DNA of 64,000 bases, from the NCBI GenBank assembly GCA_017551095.1, contig JAFZMQ010000007.1, positions 1 through 64,000 of the forward strand, given 5' to 3'. The stretch's first letter is position 1. Every line of letters begins with the position of its first letter. This document shows, in pieces, positions 4,614 to 13,451 of the stretch. Position numbers and translations under genes: made by a program. The stretch comes from Clostridia bacterium (GTDB taxonomy: Bacteria > Bacillota > Clostridia > UBA1381). The notes below the pieces were generated by a model. That model was not told the DNA's origin, searched no databases, and saw nothing but the letters and a program-made list of their open reading frames with translations.

Positions 4614-5264
4614 TTACCTTCTTGCGTCAAGGGAATCTTTGATTGTTTTTCTTGTGTTCAATACGATTTGTTCATAGTTCTTATCGTTTATTGCATTATT
4701 TTCGGCAAACATCCAGTCGCCACCTGCTGCCAAAACGCTATTGAATTTTACAAGCGGCAGGAAATTTTGTCCGTTCAGTCCGCCCGTTACTACCCATTCA
4801 ACCTTGCCAAAAGGTCCGTAATAGTATTGTGTCAATATGTCTACTCCGCCAAGCTGATATATCGGGAAGAATTTCAGCACATTAAGCCCGTAATTTAAGC
4901 CCATTGAGATTTCGGAGGCCGTTACACAACCGGGCAGAACGGATAAACCGTTCTTTAAGCAAAATTCTACCACTTCCGGCACAAATCCCGGTGCAACGCA
5001 GAATTTTGCACCTGCATCAAGTGCTTCTTCGGCATCGCGAAGCGAGATAACTGAACCTGCACCAACAATTACTTCGGGTGCGTCCTTTGCGATTTTTTTG
5101 ATTCTGTTTAATGAATTTTCATCCCTATGAAGCAAAACCTCGCAAACGGGAAGTCCGCCCTCAACCAACGCTTTTGCTGCCTCTGCCGCAAAATCCACAT
5201 CCGGATTTACCATTATCGGACAAATCCCTGTTGTTTTCAAAATTCCGTACATTGTTTTTTCCAT
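4614..5264 (-). CDS. eda: 2-keto-3-deoxy-6-phosphogluconate / 4-hydroxy-2-oxoglutarate aldolase
   Basis: The 216-residue protein is a class I aldolase of the Eda family, which cleaves KDPG or KHG to pyruvate plus an aldehyde. Visible motifs are CEVLLHR with the catalytic Glu, VGAGSV, APGFVPEV, PGCVTASEI and LKFFP with the Schiff-base Lys; GGDWMF lies near the end. AAGGGG precedes the ATG. It follows the Ldh_2 gene by 16 bases. No KDG kinase is present in the window, so the substrate may be phosphorylated elsewhere or be a non-phosphorylated keto acid. Confidence 0.88.
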   Translation of the reverse strand: MEKTMYGILKTTGICPIMVNPDVDFAAEAAKALVEGGLPVCEVLLHRDENSLNRIKKIAKDAPEVIVGAGSVISLRDAEEALDAGAKFCVAPGFVPEVVEFCLKNGLSVLPGCVTASEISMGLNYGLNVLKFFPIYQLGGVDILTQYYYGPFGKVEWVVTGGLNGQNFLPLVKFNSVLAAGGDWMFAENNAINDKNYEQIVLNTRKTIKDSLDARR

Positions 5265-5280
5265 TGTTTTATATCCCCTT

Positions 5281-6333
5281 TTAATAAATATTTATTTCAA
5301 TACCCGTTTTATCTGCGAGTTTTAAAAGACTGTTTGCCATAGCATCGGTCAGTTCAAGTTCTCCGCTTTCCTCTGCCTTATCGTACTTATTCCACTCCAT
5401 TTCACCCGGAAGGAAAATTGTGTCTTTACCCTTTTCCTTTGGGGCATTTTTAAGCTCGTTTATAACTTGGCTTATTCTCTTATTAAACTCGTCAGTGTCC
5501 ATAATCTGTGCAATATCTATTGCAATGAAGGCATGACCGGCATTGTTTGTTGATGACATATCCAGATTCCAACTTGCAACCTCGCTAAGCATTCCTGCTC
5601 CTGTCATTACTGCGGACAATATTTCCACTAATACGCAGAGTCCGTAGCCCTTGTGTGCCGCCATCGGCTGCAAACTTGCATTTTGCGGAAATAGTGAGGC
5701 GTCTGTTGTCGGCTTTCCGTCCTCATCTACAAGCCATGTATCCGGTATTGCCATACCCTTTTCCTGTGCCATAATGACTTTTAATGCCGCTACATTACTG
5801 AGTGCAATATCAAGAAAAACACTCTTTCCGTCGCCCGTCGGTGCGGCAAATGAAAACGGATTTGTACCGATTGCCTTTTTAGCACCGTTTGGGACGGCAA
5901 TAACGGGGTCTGTGTTGCTCATAGAAATCCCCAAAAGTCCTTCCTTTGCCGCAAGATTTGCGTAATATCCCGCCGCACCGAAATGACAGCTATTTTTAAC
6001 TCCTACATAGGCAATACCAACTTTTTTTGCCTTTTCGATTGCAATTCGCATCGCCTTTGATGCCGTAACCATTCCCAAAGCCTTGTTTCCGTTAATGATT
6101 GCAAATGCAGGACCTTCCCTCATTACCGTCGGCTCTGCCTTAGCATCAAGACCGCCTGCCTCAATCTTTTCTATGTACTGCCCCAAATTCTTCGTTCCGT
6201 GTGTCACTACGCCAAACATATCGGTTGAAACTAATGTTTTTGCCGTAATTTCAGCATTTTCCTCTGAAACTCCGATTTTTGTCAGAGCTTTTACTGAAAA
6301 GCTATACAAATCGACTATTTTAATTTTACTCAC
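5281..6333 (-). CDS. Malate/L-lactate (Ldh_2) family NAD(P)-dependent dehydrogenase
   Basis: A 350-residue protein of the Ldh_2/YlbC family, which includes sulfolactate, ureidoglycolate and 2,3-diketo-L-gulonate reductases acting on 2-hydroxy or 2-keto acids. The THGTKNLGQY segment, SCHFGAAGYYA, IGTNPFSFAAP and AAHKGYGL are family hallmarks. It is the first gene of the sugar-acid operon, with a GTG start preceded by AGGTG. The likely reaction is reduction or oxidation of a keto sugar acid; the substrate is not determined. Confidence 0.85.
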   Translation of the reverse strand: MSKIKIVDLYSFSVKALTKIGVSEENAEITAKTLVSTDMFGVVTHGTKNLGQYIEKIEAGGLDAKAEPTVMREGPAFAIINGNKALGMVTASKAMRIAIEKAKKVGIAYVGVKNSCHFGAAGYYANLAAKEGLLGISMSNTDPVIAVPNGAKKAIGTNPFSFAAPTGDGKSVFLDIALSNVAALKVIMAQEKGMAIPDTWLVDEDGKPTTDASLFPQNASLQPMAAHKGYGLCVLVEILSAVMTGAGMLSEVASWNLDMSSTNNAGHAFIAIDIAQIMDTDEFNKRISQVINELKNAPKEKGKDTIFLPGEMEWNKYDKAEESGELELTDAMANSLLKLADKTGIEINIY

Positions 6334-7829: not shown

Positions 7830-7877
7830 TGGTTGGAGATTTTAAAATAAGCAAAATTATTTGAGGTGAAAAGAGAC

Positions 7878-8675
7878 ATGAAACACATAATAGTTAGTTT
7901 AATCGTTTTAATACTTATTCTTCCGGCTGCCCTGCTGTCCGGATGTGCGAAAAACAAGCCGTCAGATAGAGCAAAAGGCGATAAAATCGGCATTATTGGG
8001 GCTATGGATGTCGAGGTGGATGCCCTAAAAGAAGCGGCTGATATTAAAGTCGTAACAAAAATTGCCGATATGGAATTTTGCGACGGAACGCTTGGAGAAC
8101 AAAATGTAGTCATAGTTAAATGCGGAATGGGCAAGGTTAACGCAGGAATATGTGCAAATATCCTGATAAACGATTTTAATTGCACTAAAATCATCAATAC
8201 AGGCGTTGCGGGTTCCCTTGATGATAGGATTGATATTGGTGATTTTGTTGTTTCAACTGATGCCGTTCAACACGACTTTAATGTGACAGCAATCGGTTTT
8301 GAAAAAGGTGAAATCCCATACACAGGACTGTATGCATTTCCTGCGGACGAGTCGCTGCACAACACAGCAGTAAATGCGATAAAAGAATCTGCTCCCGATG
8401 TTAATGTTTTTGAAGGAAGAGTTTGTTCCGGAGATCAGTTTATTTCCACAAAAGAGCAAAAGGATAAAATAATTTCCGATTTCGGAGGATTGTGCTGCGA
8501 GATGGAGGGTGCTGCGATTGCACAGGTTTGCTTCCTTAATAACACGCCTTTTGTAGTTATCCGTGCAATTTCAGATAAACCGAATGAAACAGAATTTGTT
8601 GATTATAAGGTTTTTGAGGCACAGGCTGCGGCAAGGTGTGCACAAATCGTTCAATATATGATTGAAAATATGTGA
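7878..8675 (+). CDS. Lipoprotein 5'-methylthioadenosine/S-adenosylhomocysteine nucleosidase
   Basis: The C-terminal 230 residues are a clear MTA/SAH nucleosidase: IGIIGAMDVEVDAL, GMGKVNA, NTGVAGSL, VQHDFNVTAIGF, CEMEGAAIAQVC and RAISDK. The two catalytic Glu and the Asp are kept. The enzyme cleaves adenine from methylthioadenosine and S-adenosylhomocysteine. Unusually, it begins with a hydrophobic signal segment ending in LLSGC, a lipobox, so the mature enzyme should be lipid-anchored outside the membrane, whereas the usual MTAN is cytoplasmic. I chose the ATG at 7878, ten bases after GAGGTG, over an upstream GTG inside that site. It is 74 bases before the STAS gene on the same strand. Confidence 0.85.
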   Translation: MKHIIVSLIVLILILPAALLSGCAKNKPSDRAKGDKIGIIGAMDVEVDALKEAADIKVVTKIADMEFCDGTLGEQNVVIVKCGMGKVNAGICANILINDFNCTKIINTGVAGSLDDRIDIGDFVVSTDAVQHDFNVTAIGFEKGEIPYTGLYAFPADESLHNTAVNAIKESAPDVNVFEGRVCSGDQFISTKEQKDKIISDFGGLCCEMEGAAIAQVCFLNNTPFVVIRAISDKPNETEFVDYKVFEAQAAARCAQIVQYMIENM

Positions 8676-8749: not shown

Positions 8750-9049
8750 ATGGAAATTTTAAAAAACAAAACAGGTAGCAATCTTGTTATATATCTTTCG
8801 GGCAGACTTGACACGGTATCCGCTCCGCAGCTTGAAGAAGAATTGAAAGCATCAATCGGTGATGTGACAGAGCTTATTTTAGACATTTCAAATTTGGAGT
8901 ATATGTCATCGGCAGGACTTAGGATTCTTTTATCTGCACAAAAGACAATGAATGCGAAGGGCAAAATGATTGTAAAAAATGTTAACGATACAATTATGGA
9001 AATCTTTGAGGTTACCGGCTTTATCGACATTCTTACAATAGAAAACTAA
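8750..9049 (+). CDS. STAS-domain anti-sigma factor antagonist
   Basis: A 99-residue single STAS domain like SpoIIAA/RsbV. The segment EYMSSAGLRILL holds the conserved serine that is phosphorylated by the partner kinase and dephosphorylated by a PP2C-type phosphatase. AAGGAG precedes the ATG. It is the first gene of a tight operon whose next genes encode the matching phosphatase (11 bases downstream) and the kinase. Its serine region is nearly identical to that of the second STAS domain at 11670. Confidence 0.9.
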   Translation: MEILKNKTGSNLVIYLSGRLDTVSAPQLEEELKASIGDVTELILDISNLEYMSSAGLRILLSAQKTMNAKGKMIVKNVNDTIMEIFEVTGFIDILTIEN

Positions 9050-9059
9050 GGAGCGTACA

Positions 9060-10679
9060 ATGAATAAAAATATAAAATACGGGCTGTCATTCAATATAAT
9101 AAGCTTTGTTGTTTTTTTGCTGCTTGTATTCAGTATTACCGTAGGCATTGCGGGATATATGCAGTTTACGCAGTCACTTGCAACAGAATATAACGACTCA
9201 GCTTTTCGTACAGCTGAAACCGCTGCTACGCTCATAAACGCAGACAGAATAGATGAATATCTCGAAAACGGCGGAGAAGATAATGAATACAAGTTAAGCC
9301 TTTCGAGGCTTGACACTCTTTGTGAAAAGCAGAATGTGTCGGTCATTTATACCATCATTCCCGATGCGGATTACAGTCATTACACATCAATATTTAACTC
9401 GGTAAATGCAAACACGGGTTATGACCGCTGGAATATCGGCTATGTCCGGGAAACAACAAATGATGAATACAAAAAAATATATAAAGAAATGTACGAAAAC
9501 GGACTTGAGAGAGGTACGGTTATTCGGGACAAGAATTTGAACGGCGGACTGCCTCACATTACATCACTAATTCCGCTAAAAGGCTCTGACGGCATGGTTA
9601 AAGCCATACTTTGCGTACAGCGTCCTATGGAGCAGCTTTTAATCGGCAGACGAGGATACTTGAAGCATGTGTCCCTGATAATGATTATTATTGCAATACT
9701 GGCGTCTTTAATTGCAGGTTTTGGAATAAGAAAATACTTCATCAGTCCGGTCAAAAAAATATCGGAAGAGGCGGAGCGTTTTGCTGCGGAAAATCGCATA
9801 GCTGACAAAAATGTGCTTAAAAATTTGAGTAAATTAAATGAAATGCGTGCCTTGGCATCATCTGTTGAAAAGATGGAACTGGACACAGTAAGCTATATTG
9901 AAAATATAACATCAATAACGGCTGACAAAGAGAGAATGGGTACGGAGCTTAATATTGCAAGTCAGATTCAGGAAGGTTCTATTCCCACAATTTTCCCGCC
10001 GTATCCTGACAGAAAGGAATTTGACATATATGCGTCAATGACTCCTGCAAAGGAAGTCGGCGGTGATTTTTATGACTTTTTCCTTATTGATGATGACCAT
10101 CTGGGCTTAGTCATGGCGGATGTATCAGGCAAAGGCGTACCTGCCGCACTCTTTATGATGGTTACAAAAATCCTTGTCAGTGAAATAGCAAAAACAGGCA
10201 TTTCGACAGATGAGATCCTCTCTACTGTAAACAACAGAATATGTGCTCATAACAAAGCAGGAATGTTTGTAACGGTATGGCTCGGTATTTTGGAAATTTC
10301 CACAGGTATTTTAAGAGCGTCAAATGCAGGTCACGAATACCCTGCAATAAAACGTGCAAACGGCAAATTTGAACTATTTAAGGATAAGCACGGTTTTGTC
10401 GTTGGCGGCATGGATGACATAAAATACAATGAATATGAGATAAAGTTATCAAAAGGCGATACTATATTCCTTTATACAGACGGCGTTACAGAAGCCACAA
10501 ACGCAAATAACGAGTTGTTTGGAAATGACCGGCTTGTATCCGCACTTAATATAAAAAGCGAATTTTCCACCGCAGAACTTTTGGAGTGTGTAAAATCGGA
10601 AATTGATAAATTTGTCGGGAAGGCACCGCAATTTGACGATATTACAATGATGGCGGTTAGATATTTTGGAGGGAAATAA
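9060..10679 (+). CDS. Membrane-bound SpoIIE/RsbU-type serine phosphatase
   Basis: This 539-residue protein has a membrane segment near 12-32, an extracytoplasmic sensor region to about 205, a second membrane segment, a HAMP-like linker (about 225-280) and a PP2C SpoIIE domain (about 300-538). EVGGDFYDFF, MADVSGKGVPAALFM and TDGVTEA carry the metal-binding aspartates. It should sense an external or envelope signal and dephosphorylate one or both STAS proteins of the operon, freeing them to bind the RsbW-like kinase. No other input domain is visible in the sensor region. Confidence 0.88.
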   Translation: MNKNIKYGLSFNIISFVVFLLLVFSITVGIAGYMQFTQSLATEYNDSAFRTAETAATLINADRIDEYLENGGEDNEYKLSLSRLDTLCEKQNVSVIYTIIPDADYSHYTSIFNSVNANTGYDRWNIGYVRETTNDEYKKIYKEMYENGLERGTVIRDKNLNGGLPHITSLIPLKGSDGMVKAILCVQRPMEQLLIGRRGYLKHVSLIMIIIAILASLIAGFGIRKYFISPVKKISEEAERFAAENRIADKNVLKNLSKLNEMRALASSVEKMELDTVSYIENITSITADKERMGTELNIASQIQEGSIPTIFPPYPDRKEFDIYASMTPAKEVGGDFYDFFLIDDDHLGLVMADVSGKGVPAALFMMVTKILVSEIAKTGISTDEILSTVNNRICAHNKAGMFVTVWLGILEISTGILRASNAGHEYPAIKRANGKFELFKDKHGFVVGGMDDIKYNEYEIKLSKGDTIFLYTDGVTEATNANNELFGNDRLVSALNIKSEFSTAELLECVKSEIDKFVGKAPQFDDITMMAVRYFGGK

Positions 10680-10680
10680 A

Positions 10681-11088
10681 GTGAAAGAACTTACGATTGA
10701 TGCGACAGTTGAAAATATCAATAAGGTTACTGAATTCATAAATGAGCAGCTTGAAACCTGCGGCTGTCCGATAAAGGCACAAATGCAGATAGATGTTGCC
10801 ATTGACGAATTATTCAGCAATATCGCACACTACGCCTACAATCCCGATGTCGGTCCTGCAACAGTACGGGTTGAGGCACGGGAAAATCCTTTATCTGTAA
10901 TAATAACCTTTATTGATAATGGAAAACCGTATGATCCGCTTAAAAAAACCGATCCTGATATAACTCTTTCGGCAGAGGACCGCGAGATCGGCGGACTTGG
11001 CATATTCCTTGTTAAAAAGACAATGGACGATGTTAGCTATGAATACAAGGACGGACAAAACATTTTAACAATAAAGAAAAACATTTAG
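10681..11088 (+). CDS. RsbW/SpoIIAB-like ATP-binding anti-sigma kinase
   Basis: A GHKL-type ATPase of 136 residues. AIDELFSNIAHYA is the N box, FIDNGKPYDP the G1 box and GGLGIFL the G2 box. Such kinases bind a sigma factor or other target and phosphorylate the STAS antagonist. No sigma factor gene lies nearby, so the controlled target is unknown. The GTG at 10681 follows GGAGGG by seven bases and lies one base after the phosphatase stop, which implies translational coupling. Confidence 0.87.
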   Translation: MKELTIDATVENINKVTEFINEQLETCGCPIKAQMQIDVAIDELFSNIAHYAYNPDVGPATVRVEARENPLSVIITFIDNGKPYDPLKKTDPDITLSAEDREIGGLGIFLVKKTMDDVSYEYKDGQNILTIKKNI

Positions 11089-11099
11089 CGAGGCAAAAT

Positions 11100-11666
11100 A
11101 TGAATATTTTTGATAAAGCAATAATTTTTGCGACAGAAGCACATAGCGGAATGTATCGCAAAAAGAGCAAAACGCCATATATATTGCATCCTATGGAAGC
11201 GGCGGCAATAGCAGGTACTATGACGGACGATATTGAGATAATCACAGCGGCACTGCTTCACGATACGGTTGAGGATACAGCCGTTACCATTGAAGAAATA
11301 AAGGATAGATTCGGCAGCCGTGTTGCCGATTTGGTAAAAAGCGAAACTGAGGATAAGCGTGAAGAGTTACCTCCTGATGCGACATGGCAGATTCGCAAAG
11401 AAGAATCCCTTGAAGTGCTAAAAAACACCGATGATTTGGGCGTAAAAATACTGTGGCTTTCCGATAAACTTTCCAATATGCGTTCTTTTTACCGCAAATA
11501 CAAAAAATGCGGCAACGCTCTGTGGCAGGATTTTCATCAGAAAGACCCCGACAAGCAGTTCTGGTATTATGATACGATTGCGAACCTCTTATCCGACTTG
11601 CAAGAATTTGAGGCTTGGCAGGAATATAAATATTTGATAAATAAAGTTTTTAATAAAGGAGAATAA
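11100..11666 (+). CDS. RelA/SpoT-like HD-domain phosphohydrolase (small alarmone hydrolase-like)
   Basis: The 188-residue protein matches the (p)ppGpp hydrolase half of RelA/SpoT and the MESH1-type small hydrolases. His30 in YILHPMEAA, His54-Asp55 in LLHDTVEDT and Asp122 in LSDKLSNM form the metal site, and Glu58-Asp59 supply the hydrolysis motif. There is no synthetase domain. It probably removes pyrophosphate from (p)ppGpp or a related nucleotide. It starts 11 bases after the RsbW-like gene, linking this activity to the partner-switching module. Confidence 0.82.
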   Translation: MNIFDKAIIFATEAHSGMYRKKSKTPYILHPMEAAAIAGTMTDDIEIITAALLHDTVEDTAVTIEEIKDRFGSRVADLVKSETEDKREELPPDATWQIRKEESLEVLKNTDDLGVKILWLSDKLSNMRSFYRKYKKCGNALWQDFHQKDPDKQFWYYDTIANLLSDLQEFEAWQEYKYLINKVFNKGE

Positions 11667-11669
11667 AAA

Positions 11670-12851
11670 ATGGCAGAAGTGAAATTTAACATGGAAAACA
11701 ATGTACTTACCGTATTTTTATGCGGTCATATCGATTCGGCAAATGCGGCTGAAATCGAAGCGAAAATAACCGCAGAGCGTGAAAAAACACCGTCCGAGAA
11801 TATCATAATTGATGCGGAAAAGCTCGAATACATTTCAAGTGCCGGACTTAGAATACTTTTGCGTATCAGAAAAGATATGCCCGAAATGAAAATAATAAAT
11901 GTTTCCCCCGAAGTATATGAGATTCTGGATATGACCGGCTTTACCGAAATGATAACTGTCGAAAAGGCATACAGAGTTATTTCGGTTGACGGCTGTGAGG
12001 TTATCGGGCAAGGCGCAAACGGCAAAGTCTACCGCATAGACCGCGACACTATTGTAAAAGTGTACTTAAATCCCGATTCACTTCCCGATATACACCGTGA
12101 GCGTGAACTTGCAAGAAAGGCGTTTGTTTTGGGAATCCCGACAGCAATACCCTATGATGTTGTACGCGTCGGGGACGGATATGGCTCGGTATTTGAGCTT
12201 TTGAATGCAAAATCCTTTGCTAAAATCATTATAGAATACCCTGATAAACTTGATGAAGTAATCAAGATGTCGGTTGATTTGCTGAAAAAGATTCACGGAA
12301 CTGTTGTGAAAAAAGGCGATATGCCCGATATGAAGGAGGTTGTGCTTGGCTGGGCAGAATTTTTGAAGGACTACCTGCCCGAAGAGCAATACAATAAGTT
12401 ACATTCACTGGTTGAGGCAGTTCCCGAAGATAATCACATGATGCACGGCGATTATCATTTGAAAAATGTAATGCTCCAAGACGGAGAAGTTCTGCTTATC
12501 GATATGGATACTCTTTGTATGGGACACCCGATTTTTGAGTTGGCATCGGTATTTAATGCATATGTCGGATTCAGTGAGCTTGACCATTCGGTATCAATGT
12601 CCTTCCTCGGAATACCGCATGAAACAGCAGAGAAAATATGGGAACAAACTCTGCACCTCTACCTCGGTACAGATGATGAAAAGATAATTGAGGCGGTTAA
12701 AGAAAAGGCAATGATTGTAGGCTATACCCGTATTATGAGACGTACCATACGCAGAAACGGTCTTAATACACCCGACGGTCAAAAGCAGATTGAAGTATGC
12801 AAAAATCATTTAGCGGACCTTTTAAGTCGTGTTGATTCTTTGGTATTTTAA
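11670..12851 (+). CDS. STAS domain fused to an aminoglycoside-phosphotransferase-like kinase
   Basis: Residues 1-100 form a STAS domain with EYISSAGLRILL, almost the same target-serine segment as the gene at 8750. Residues 110-393 are an APH/choline-kinase-type phosphotransferase: glycine-rich GQGANGKVYR, KVYLN with the ATP-binding Lys, the catalytic MMHGDYHLKNVML and the metal-binding LIDMDTL. AAAGGAG precedes the ATG, three bases after the previous stop. The fusion suggests that STAS phosphorylation controls, or is controlled by, the phosphotransferase. Its substrate is unknown, and antibiotic resistance is not implied. Confidence 0.85.
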   Translation: MAEVKFNMENNVLTVFLCGHIDSANAAEIEAKITAEREKTPSENIIIDAEKLEYISSAGLRILLRIRKDMPEMKIINVSPEVYEILDMTGFTEMITVEKAYRVISVDGCEVIGQGANGKVYRIDRDTIVKVYLNPDSLPDIHRERELARKAFVLGIPTAIPYDVVRVGDGYGSVFELLNAKSFAKIIIEYPDKLDEVIKMSVDLLKKIHGTVVKKGDMPDMKEVVLGWAEFLKDYLPEEQYNKLHSLVEAVPEDNHMMHGDYHLKNVMLQDGEVLLIDMDTLCMGHPIFELASVFNAYVGFSELDHSVSMSFLGIPHETAEKIWEQTLHLYLGTDDEKIIEAVKEKAMIVGYTRIMRRTIRRNGLNTPDGQKQIEVCKNHLADLLSRVDSLVF

Positions 12852-12876: not shown

Positions 12877-13425
12877 ATGATTTTACTGATAAATGCATGT
12901 GTCCGAAAAGCGTCAAGAACTAAACGCTTAGCAGATCGGTTTCTTTCTGAAAAAAAGCAATCCGTAACGGAAATTAATCTTGCCGATATTGAATATCCCA
13001 AGGTTGATGAGGAATTTCTCATAAAAAGAGACTCACTGATAGCCAAAGGCGATTTTGATAACCCTATGTTTGAAATTGCAAAACAGTTTGCAAATGCTGA
13101 TGAAATCGTGATAGCGGCACCGTTTTGGGACTTATCCTTTCCGTCAAGCCTTAAACAGTATTTTGAGCAAATAAATGTTCTCGGTATAACCTTCCGCTAC
13201 ACACCGGAAGGGATACCGCAGGGGTTATGCAAGGCGACAAAACTTACATATATCACAACTTCGGGCGGAGATTTTTTCCCTGAGGAATTCGGGTTCGGAT
13301 ATGTAAAAGCATTGGCGGAAAACTTCTACGGCATACACGATGTCAGGCTCATAAAAGCCACAGGACTTGATGTTGACGGTGCAAATGTGGAAAAAATACT
13401 TGATTCTGTTTTTAAAGAATATTAA
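12877..13425 (+). CDS. Flavodoxin-fold NAD(P)H oxidoreductase
   Basis: A 182-residue protein of the flavodoxin-like/AzoR-NQO family. NACVRKASRTKRLA at the N-terminus binds the FMN phosphate, and AAPFWDLSFPSSLKQYFEQIN and TTSGGDFF are typical of these reductases. It probably transfers electrons from NAD(P)H to quinones or similar acceptors. It is the last gene of the partner-switching operon, 25 bases after the STAS-kinase gene and directly before a terminator. Confidence 0.8.
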   Translation: MILLINACVRKASRTKRLADRFLSEKKQSVTEINLADIEYPKVDEEFLIKRDSLIAKGDFDNPMFEIAKQFANADEIVIAAPFWDLSFPSSLKQYFEQINVLGITFRYTPEGIPQGLCKATKLTYITTSGGDFFPEEFGFGYVKALAENFYGIHDVRLIKATGLDVDGANVEKILDSVFKEY

Positions 13426-13451
13426 AAAAGGAGCAAATTTGCTCCTTTTTT
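13424..13451 (+). terminator. Terminator of the partner-switching operon
   Basis: AAAAAGGAGCAAA pairs perfectly with TTTGCTCCTTTTT. The T tract starts immediately after the stem, and the hairpin also lies at the 3' end of the convergent PPC gene. Confidence 0.85.

Follow-up and report, generated by a model that had tools for sequence, protein, structure and literature searches.

The gene at positions 11670-12851 of the window, the 64,000-nucleotide stretch of contig analysed here, encodes a STAS domain fused to an APH-type phosphotransferase (STAS-APH) and lies in an operon with the genes of a partner-switching module. We consider it reasonably likely that this protein is an effector enzyme of the module, with phosphorylation of and docking on its STAS domain switching the attached kinase, and the output of the module is probably non-transcriptional. 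The host is a gut or rumen bacterium whose assembly (80.66% complete) comprises 1.37 Mb in 41 contigs, and nearly all of the relatives described below are also MAGs. L numbers designate loci, and C numbers contigs of the host genome.

Domains and motifs of the fusion protein

The STAS and APH matches both exceed their curated Pfam cut-offs (60.8 bits against 23.2 for PF01636), and TIGR00377 is likewise above cut-off for the STAS part, which bears out the earlier note's recognition of the two domains in one protein. The reading frame starts at an ATG with an AAGGAG-like site upstream, and the APH fold runs on past residue 298 to the C-terminus. That note had also listed a nucleotide-binding lysine and the HGDxxxxN and DMD motifs in the APH part. 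They are present as K130 (in VKVY), H259-G-D261-YHLK-N266 and D278-M-D280, and an alignment of 72 full-length STAS-APH sequences showed all of them to be conserved. The SSAGLR segment of the STAS domain (residues 56-61), K130, H259, D261, N266 and D278 occur in 72/72 sequences and D280 in 68/72; at the domain junction K99 and G108 are invariant and C109 is found in 70/72. The Pfam matches together with this conservation rule out a chance or frame artefact.

The Ser56-Ser57 pair was kept in every one of the 72 sequences. The candidate phospho-acceptor, judged from the alignment, is Ser57. This is the RsbV-type position, the RsbV acceptor being Ser56; SpoIIAA Ser58 aligns with Ala58 of STAS-APH.

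Table 1. Coordinates of the STAS-APH protein, its parts and the other features of the operon
Feature	Position	Strand	Remarks
Solo STAS protein (RsbV/SpoIIAA-like)	8750-9049	+	99 aa, SSAGLR
Membrane protein with C-terminal SpoIIE-type PP2C phosphatase	9060-10679	+	PP2C at residues 344-535
RsbW/SpoIIAB-like HATPase, predicted serine kinase	10681-11088	+	GTG start at 10681 preferred
RelA/Mesh1-type HD hydrolase (small alarmone hydrolase-like)	11100-11666	+	188 aa; Pfam HD_4
STAS-APH fusion protein	11670-12851	+	393 aa; the main finding
STAS domain, residues 10-99	11697-11966	+	Pfam PF01740, E 7.6e-16
Candidate phospho-acceptor Ser57, codon	11838-11840	+	acceptor position predicted
APH-type phosphotransferase core, residues 110-298	11997-12563	+	Pfam PF01636, E 2.2e-16
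Flavodoxin-fold FMN/NAD(P)H reductase	12877-13425	+	last operon gene; begins 25 bases past STAS-APH
Terminator-like hairpin after last gene	13424-13451	.	hairpin scan, minus-strand match

Genes of the operon

The genes follow in the order STAS, membrane PP2C, HATPase, HD hydrolase, STAS-APH and flavodoxin-like reductase, and up to STAS-APH only 1 to 11 bases separate one gene from the next. The PP2C motif residues are conserved in 37 sequences. The HATPase reading frame as listed opens at TTG 10666; its N, G1 and G2 box residues are intact in 14/14 distinct solo homologues, and key HATPase residues are equally intact in 34/34 PP2C-fused and 8/8 STAS-APH-fused copies. The HD hydrolase matches HD_4 (PF13328) with an E value of 2.1e-21 (76.7 bits) and resembles the structures 4yf1 and Mesh1 3nr1, and its residues R20, H30, H54, D55, E58, D59, D122 and N126 are found in 31/31 homologues. 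The only RelA_SpoT synthetase domain found in the genome belongs to a long RSH on contig C34, and a toxic alarmone synthetase as partner of the hydrolase was rejected on that ground.

The FMN reductase gene was near STAS-APH in 5/62 loci, and also in L130. The palindrome that follows it has a T run on the plus strand. At the other end of the operon, an MTA/SAH nucleosidase gene (7866-8675) was considered as a module member and rejected, a homologue being near STAS-APH in 0/62 anchored loci. This nucleosidase has an apparent lipoprotein signal sequence and is possibly extracytoplasmic. There is no sigma factor gene in the operon; the three Sigma70_r2 genes found in the genome are all on other contigs, and a SigBFG-type sigma factor (267.8 bits) is encoded on contig C24.

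Distribution and predicted structure

Scanning genome contigs once, we obtained 65 loci with relatives of STAS-APH. Most come from Clostridia of the rumen and gut; a few bear the labels Chloroflexota, Atopobiaceae or Erysipelotrichaceae, which are unsure since the genomes are MAGs. Counts here and below span related sequences, and a few contigs occur twice. A whole-genome search at 1e-30 found matches in 24/391 genomes of the class and 5/398 of the phylum, while at 1e-8 some match was present in 32/70 genomes of the family, many of these being to STAS alone or APH alone. Using tblastn (query P0001), we obtained one plasmid and one phage record. In each, the match was confined to the APH part (25-27% identity), and a mobile-element origin was rejected on this basis. 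No description of a STAS-APH fusion was found in the open-access full texts searched, among which PMC10727445 was the only one naming both an anti-sigma factor antagonist and an aminoglycoside phosphotransferase.

An AlphaFold2 model built with 58 sequences had a pLDDT of 93.3 and a pTM of 0.79. The STAS part superimposes on SpoIIAA bound to SpoIIAB (1th8_B; Z 16.1, rmsd 1.7 over 100), and SpoIIAA and RsbV structures are among its best fold matches. The APH part matches small-molecule kinases best, led by 3dxq (Z 17.0, rmsd 4.6 over 258), APH(3')-Ia (16.3), APH(4)-Ia (16.0), PsiK (15.9) and LicA (4r7b; 15.3), and Foldseek placed APH(3')-Ia first. In a profile search (A1) only STAS chains passed 1e-5, and none did so for the APH part. 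Choosing a substrate from the fold was rejected, as the choline, aminoglycoside and other small-molecule kinase matches tie.

Gene neighbourhood and the STAS-less copies

Within the 42 loci having at least 5 kb of upstream sequence, STAS-APH had a HATPase gene nearby in 31, a solo STAS in 33, a PP2C in 29, an HD hydrolase in 15, an FMN reductase in 4 and a nucleosidase in none. Since the host genome has just two HATPase_c_2 genes above cut-off in its 1.37 Mb, the proximity of HATPase and STAS-APH is far from what chance would give. Counting same-strand genes only, STAS-bearing copies had a HATPase nearby in 42/57 cases (including copies whose HATPase is fused to STAS-APH), a STAS in 43/57, a PP2C in 37/57 and an HD hydrolase in 19/57. 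Five copies of the kinase lack STAS (L091, L095, L122, L123 and L124), and none of these has same-strand switch genes nearby (0/5), although L095 has almost no downstream sequence and L123 is adjoined by a PP2C gene on the opposite strand. For the HATPase the contrast of 42/57 with 0/5 gives a Fisher p of 0.002, which is indicative only since the rows are related. None of the four switch genes was near 11/57 STAS-bearing copies, so the coupling of STAS-APH to the switch is not universal in gene neighbourhood. The isolate Eubacterium ruminantium FB3002 carries a family member with no switch genes close by.

Around the STAS-less gene of L123 (285-8529) there are genes for a MatE protein, a sugar-transfer ATP-grasp protein and a GH3-family enzyme beside the PP2C, with the APH gene convergent, and a GH3 gene is also present in the STAS-APH cluster of L037. 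In L037 and L049, STAS-APH is followed downstream by a cluster of C39-type ABC transporter genes (clustered with L039:6144-8318). An uncharacterised protein of about 320 amino acids (L066:1736-2695 and homologues, 16 loci) is encoded in many STAS-APH operons, upstream of their PP2C-HATPase gene, and had no Pfam match at 0.001.

Triple fusions and HD-APH fusions

Eight distinct proteins carry the switch kinase in the same chain, as STAS-APH-HATPase fusions (L002, L003, L100, L102 and L104-L107, identified with profiles built here); Pfam confirms the arrangement for L002, L003, L104 and L126, the last being the gene of L107. They form one clade in a quick tree (SH-aLRT 100). A separate solo STAS gene is near the triple fusion in 8/8 stretches. 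Apart from the fused HATPase, none in these stretches has an intact ATP site; where a second HATPase is present (3/8), it forms the tail of a MatE protein and its ATP site is degenerate. In L126 and L131 the whole set consists of STAS, PP2C and STAS-APH-HATPase, which leaves the fused HATPase as the only local candidate kinase for both STAS domains.

In two genomes of one family, a RelA-type HD hydrolase takes the place of STAS on the same APH family (L116:1444-2940 and L121:1495-2973, minus strand). In the tree these HD-APH fusions fall among the STAS-APH proteins, but their long branches leave the order of events uncertain. All eight of the HD catalytic residues checked are retained in L121, and L116 has Gly as the second ED residue; the catalytic role of these residues is that known from RSH enzymes.

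The serine segments of the STAS domains

From the near-equal serine segments of the fused and solo STAS domains, the earlier note had argued that the same kinase and phosphatase may act on both. The likeness is there, with 13/19 residues identical (0.68). As evidence for shared enzymes it does not discriminate, since solo and fused STAS domains from different loci were on average 0.627 alike (sd 0.058, n=5801) and 29% of those pairs were equally close; pairs from the same locus averaged 0.641 (n=58). The third STAS of the genome, encoded in a separate switch locus on contig C24, exceeds this likeness against the operon's solo STAS (0.74) and equals it against the fused domain (0.68), so the likeness says nothing about shared enzymes. 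The conclusion itself finds other support, namely the conservation of the operon, the eight triple fusions and the STAS-less control. At positions 21, 25, 66 and 83 there are systematic differences between the fused and the solo STAS domains, and because of this the two classes need not bind the same partner.

The C24 STAS belongs to a second partner-switch locus (L149, 390-7645) with its own PP2C and HATPase, adjoining two C39-peptidase-type ABC transporters. It has MASAGLR in place of SSAGLR and retains the serine equivalent to Ser57.

Other STAS- or HATPase-tagged proteins

STAS or HATPase domains were attached to several other proteins in these loci. In L052 a STAS-HAD (Hydrolase_3) fusion (5069-6193) shares an operon with STAS-APH, so that a tagged phosphatase accompanies a tagged kinase, and the triple-fusion cluster of L127 contains a standalone HAD (5486-6283) with 57% identity to the L052 fusion. 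A search with the junction region found no second STAS-HAD fusion in 391 genomes of the class, and the idea that this fusion is widespread was rejected.

MatE transporters with a C-terminal HATPase_c_2 are encoded beside STAS-APH in L037 (2535-4283), L042 (4079-5833), L125 (9095-10867), L127 (3705-5489), L128 (3584-5359) and L129 (6158-7915), the HATPase score of the L037 protein (26.9) being just below the cut-off of 27.4. The G1 or G2 box is degenerate in 6/6 aligned HATPases of this type (L040, L042, L106, L111, L127 and L128), all of which except L040 are Pfam-confirmed as MatE. On account of these degenerate boxes, the MatE-linked HATPase domains may be docking targets, not kinases.

Proteins of 350-470 amino acids with a C-terminal STAS were found at L049:6564-7916, L050:2177-3580, L141:858-2102 and L151-L160, the last group having been gathered by their STAS, with no STAS-APH near in the stretches read. 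The region before the STAS is weakly methyltransferase-like (Methyltransf_25 5e-4, LCM 0.006), and several of these proteins are without a match.

It is tempting to speculate, though we hold this as a doubtful possibility, that partner switching in these anaerobes is a general post-translational wiring in which STAS and degenerate HATPase domains serve as portable tags for enzymes and transporters, the output being a metabolite or nucleotide signal and not transcription. The tagged proteins would be the APH kinase, the HAD phosphatase, the methyltransferase-like proteins and the MatE transporters, and one sensor phosphatase and one kinase would govern kinase, phosphatase, alarmone hydrolase and exporter together.

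Proposed mechanism and alternative explanations

STAS is a small switch domain through which bacteria govern stress genes, and partner switching is best known for freeing sigma factors. The arrangement found here suggests that the switch controls an enzyme directly, besides gene expression. The membrane PP2C would sense a signal and dephosphorylate the STAS serines, which the RsbW-like HATPase would phosphorylate, its two substrates being the solo STAS, at Ser54, and the STAS domain of STAS-APH, at Ser57. The attached phosphotransferase would be switched by HATPase docking on the latter domain together with phosphorylation of that domain, and might then phosphorylate a small molecule or a protein. 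The HD partner suggests a nucleotide-linked pathway, and the hydrolase would work in it, probably on an alarmone- or NADPH-like nucleotide; XccSAH, a small alarmone hydrolase of Xanthomonas, hydrolyses alarmones and NADPH (PMC9765508). We would expect the unphosphorylated form of STAS-APH to be the active one, by analogy with SypA and SiaC: unphosphorylated SypA is the active protein (PMC8256260), and phosphorylation of SiaC abolishes binding and activation (PMC8457831). The earlier note's proposal of an effector under partner-switch control is partly supported: the sequences show the domain content, the operon, the invariant motifs, the fusions and a gene neighbourhood that depends on STAS, while we infer the phosphorylation of Ser57, the control of APH activity, its direction and the class of substrate. 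With a SigBFG-type sigma factor encoded elsewhere in the genome, a transcriptional output is also conceivable.

STAS-APH could alternatively be an input to the switch, ligand binding or phosphorylation by the APH part setting how its STAS competes for the HATPase and so acting on a sigma factor or another target. STAS proteins canonically serve as anti-anti-sigma factors (PMC8256260), the SigBFG-type factor would be at hand, and a triple fusion would also suit a self-sensing anti-sigma kinase. We nevertheless think this unlikely, the operon being without a sigma factor gene, the three Sigma70_r2 genes found lying on other contigs and the catalytic residues, for which a pure ligand sensor has no need, being invariant. 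The adjacency of the HD hydrolase gene and its fusion to APH in two relatives, as well as a weak profile similarity of APH to serine/threonine and Bud32 kinases, would fit a protein kinase acting on a module member (solo STAS, HD hydrolase or PP2C), that is, a second layer of phosphorylation with no metabolic output. The best fold matches are small-molecule kinases, however, and the HD gene is near just 19 of the 57 STAS-bearing copies, which makes such a role improbable.

We also weighed whether the two domains are independent, STAS providing only a scaffold or a means of oligomerisation while the kinase is constitutively active. Copies of the kinase without STAS exist, and 11 of the 57 with it are away from switch genes; but the SSAGLR segment is invariant, the switch kinase is fused in cis in eight relatives and no same-strand switch genes lie around the copies without STAS, and independence therefore appears very improbable. 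We accordingly prefer the effector reading, in which the switch acts on the enzyme that carries the STAS domain. Because in this conserved family the enzyme itself bears the STAS domain, and in some members the switch kinase as well, one purified protein would suffice to test whether the switch controls an enzyme directly. With the HD hydrolase linked to it, one may also ask if partner switching and alarmone signalling converge in a single operon of these uncultured Clostridia from gut and rumen.

Comparison with known systems

The protein carries the characters of two established classes. As in partner-switch components, there is an anti-anti-sigma-type STAS with a serine at the start of helix 2 and a co-encoded HATPase and PP2C; as in the APH/choline kinase superfamily, there are a PF01636 score above cut-off, the catalytic Lys, HxDxxxxN and DxD. 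The best NCBIfam match of the APH part (residues 105-301) is TIGR02172, the APH-like paralogues of Fibrobacter succinogenes, a name not found in the open-access literature searched; at 112.6 bits against a curated cut-off of 228.2, STAS-APH was not assigned to this family. An aminoglycoside resistance gene was also rejected, the scores for APH(3')-I (19.2 against 400), APH(6) (14 against 325) and APH(3') (14.6 against 205) all being below cut-off.

The HD hydrolase shares HD_4 and the full set of metal and ED residues with Mesh1, XccSAH and Lmo0812. Unlike those small alarmone hydrolases it is encoded in a partner-switch operon and is fused to an APH kinase in two relatives, and its activity is predicted.

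A close parallel in gene content is the RsbV/SpoIIAA-RsbW/SpoIIAB-SpoIIE/RsbU system of Bacillus, where a STAS protein, a HATPase serine kinase and a SpoIIE-type PP2C likewise occur together in one operon; here, in contrast, a kinase enzyme is fused to one STAS, an HD hydrolase is co-encoded and the operon is without a sigma factor. Control of an enzyme by a STAS-type protein has been described for SiaC-SiaD (PMC8457831) and HsbA-HsbD (PMC5085249), and in these Pseudomonas aeruginosa systems (SiaABCD and HsbA-HsbD) a phosphorylatable STAS or STAS-like protein controls the enzyme directly. The enzyme in those cases, SiaD or HsbD, is a diguanylate cyclase that binds a separate STAS protein, whereas in the STAS-APH family the enzyme itself carries the STAS domain, within the chain of an APH-fold kinase.
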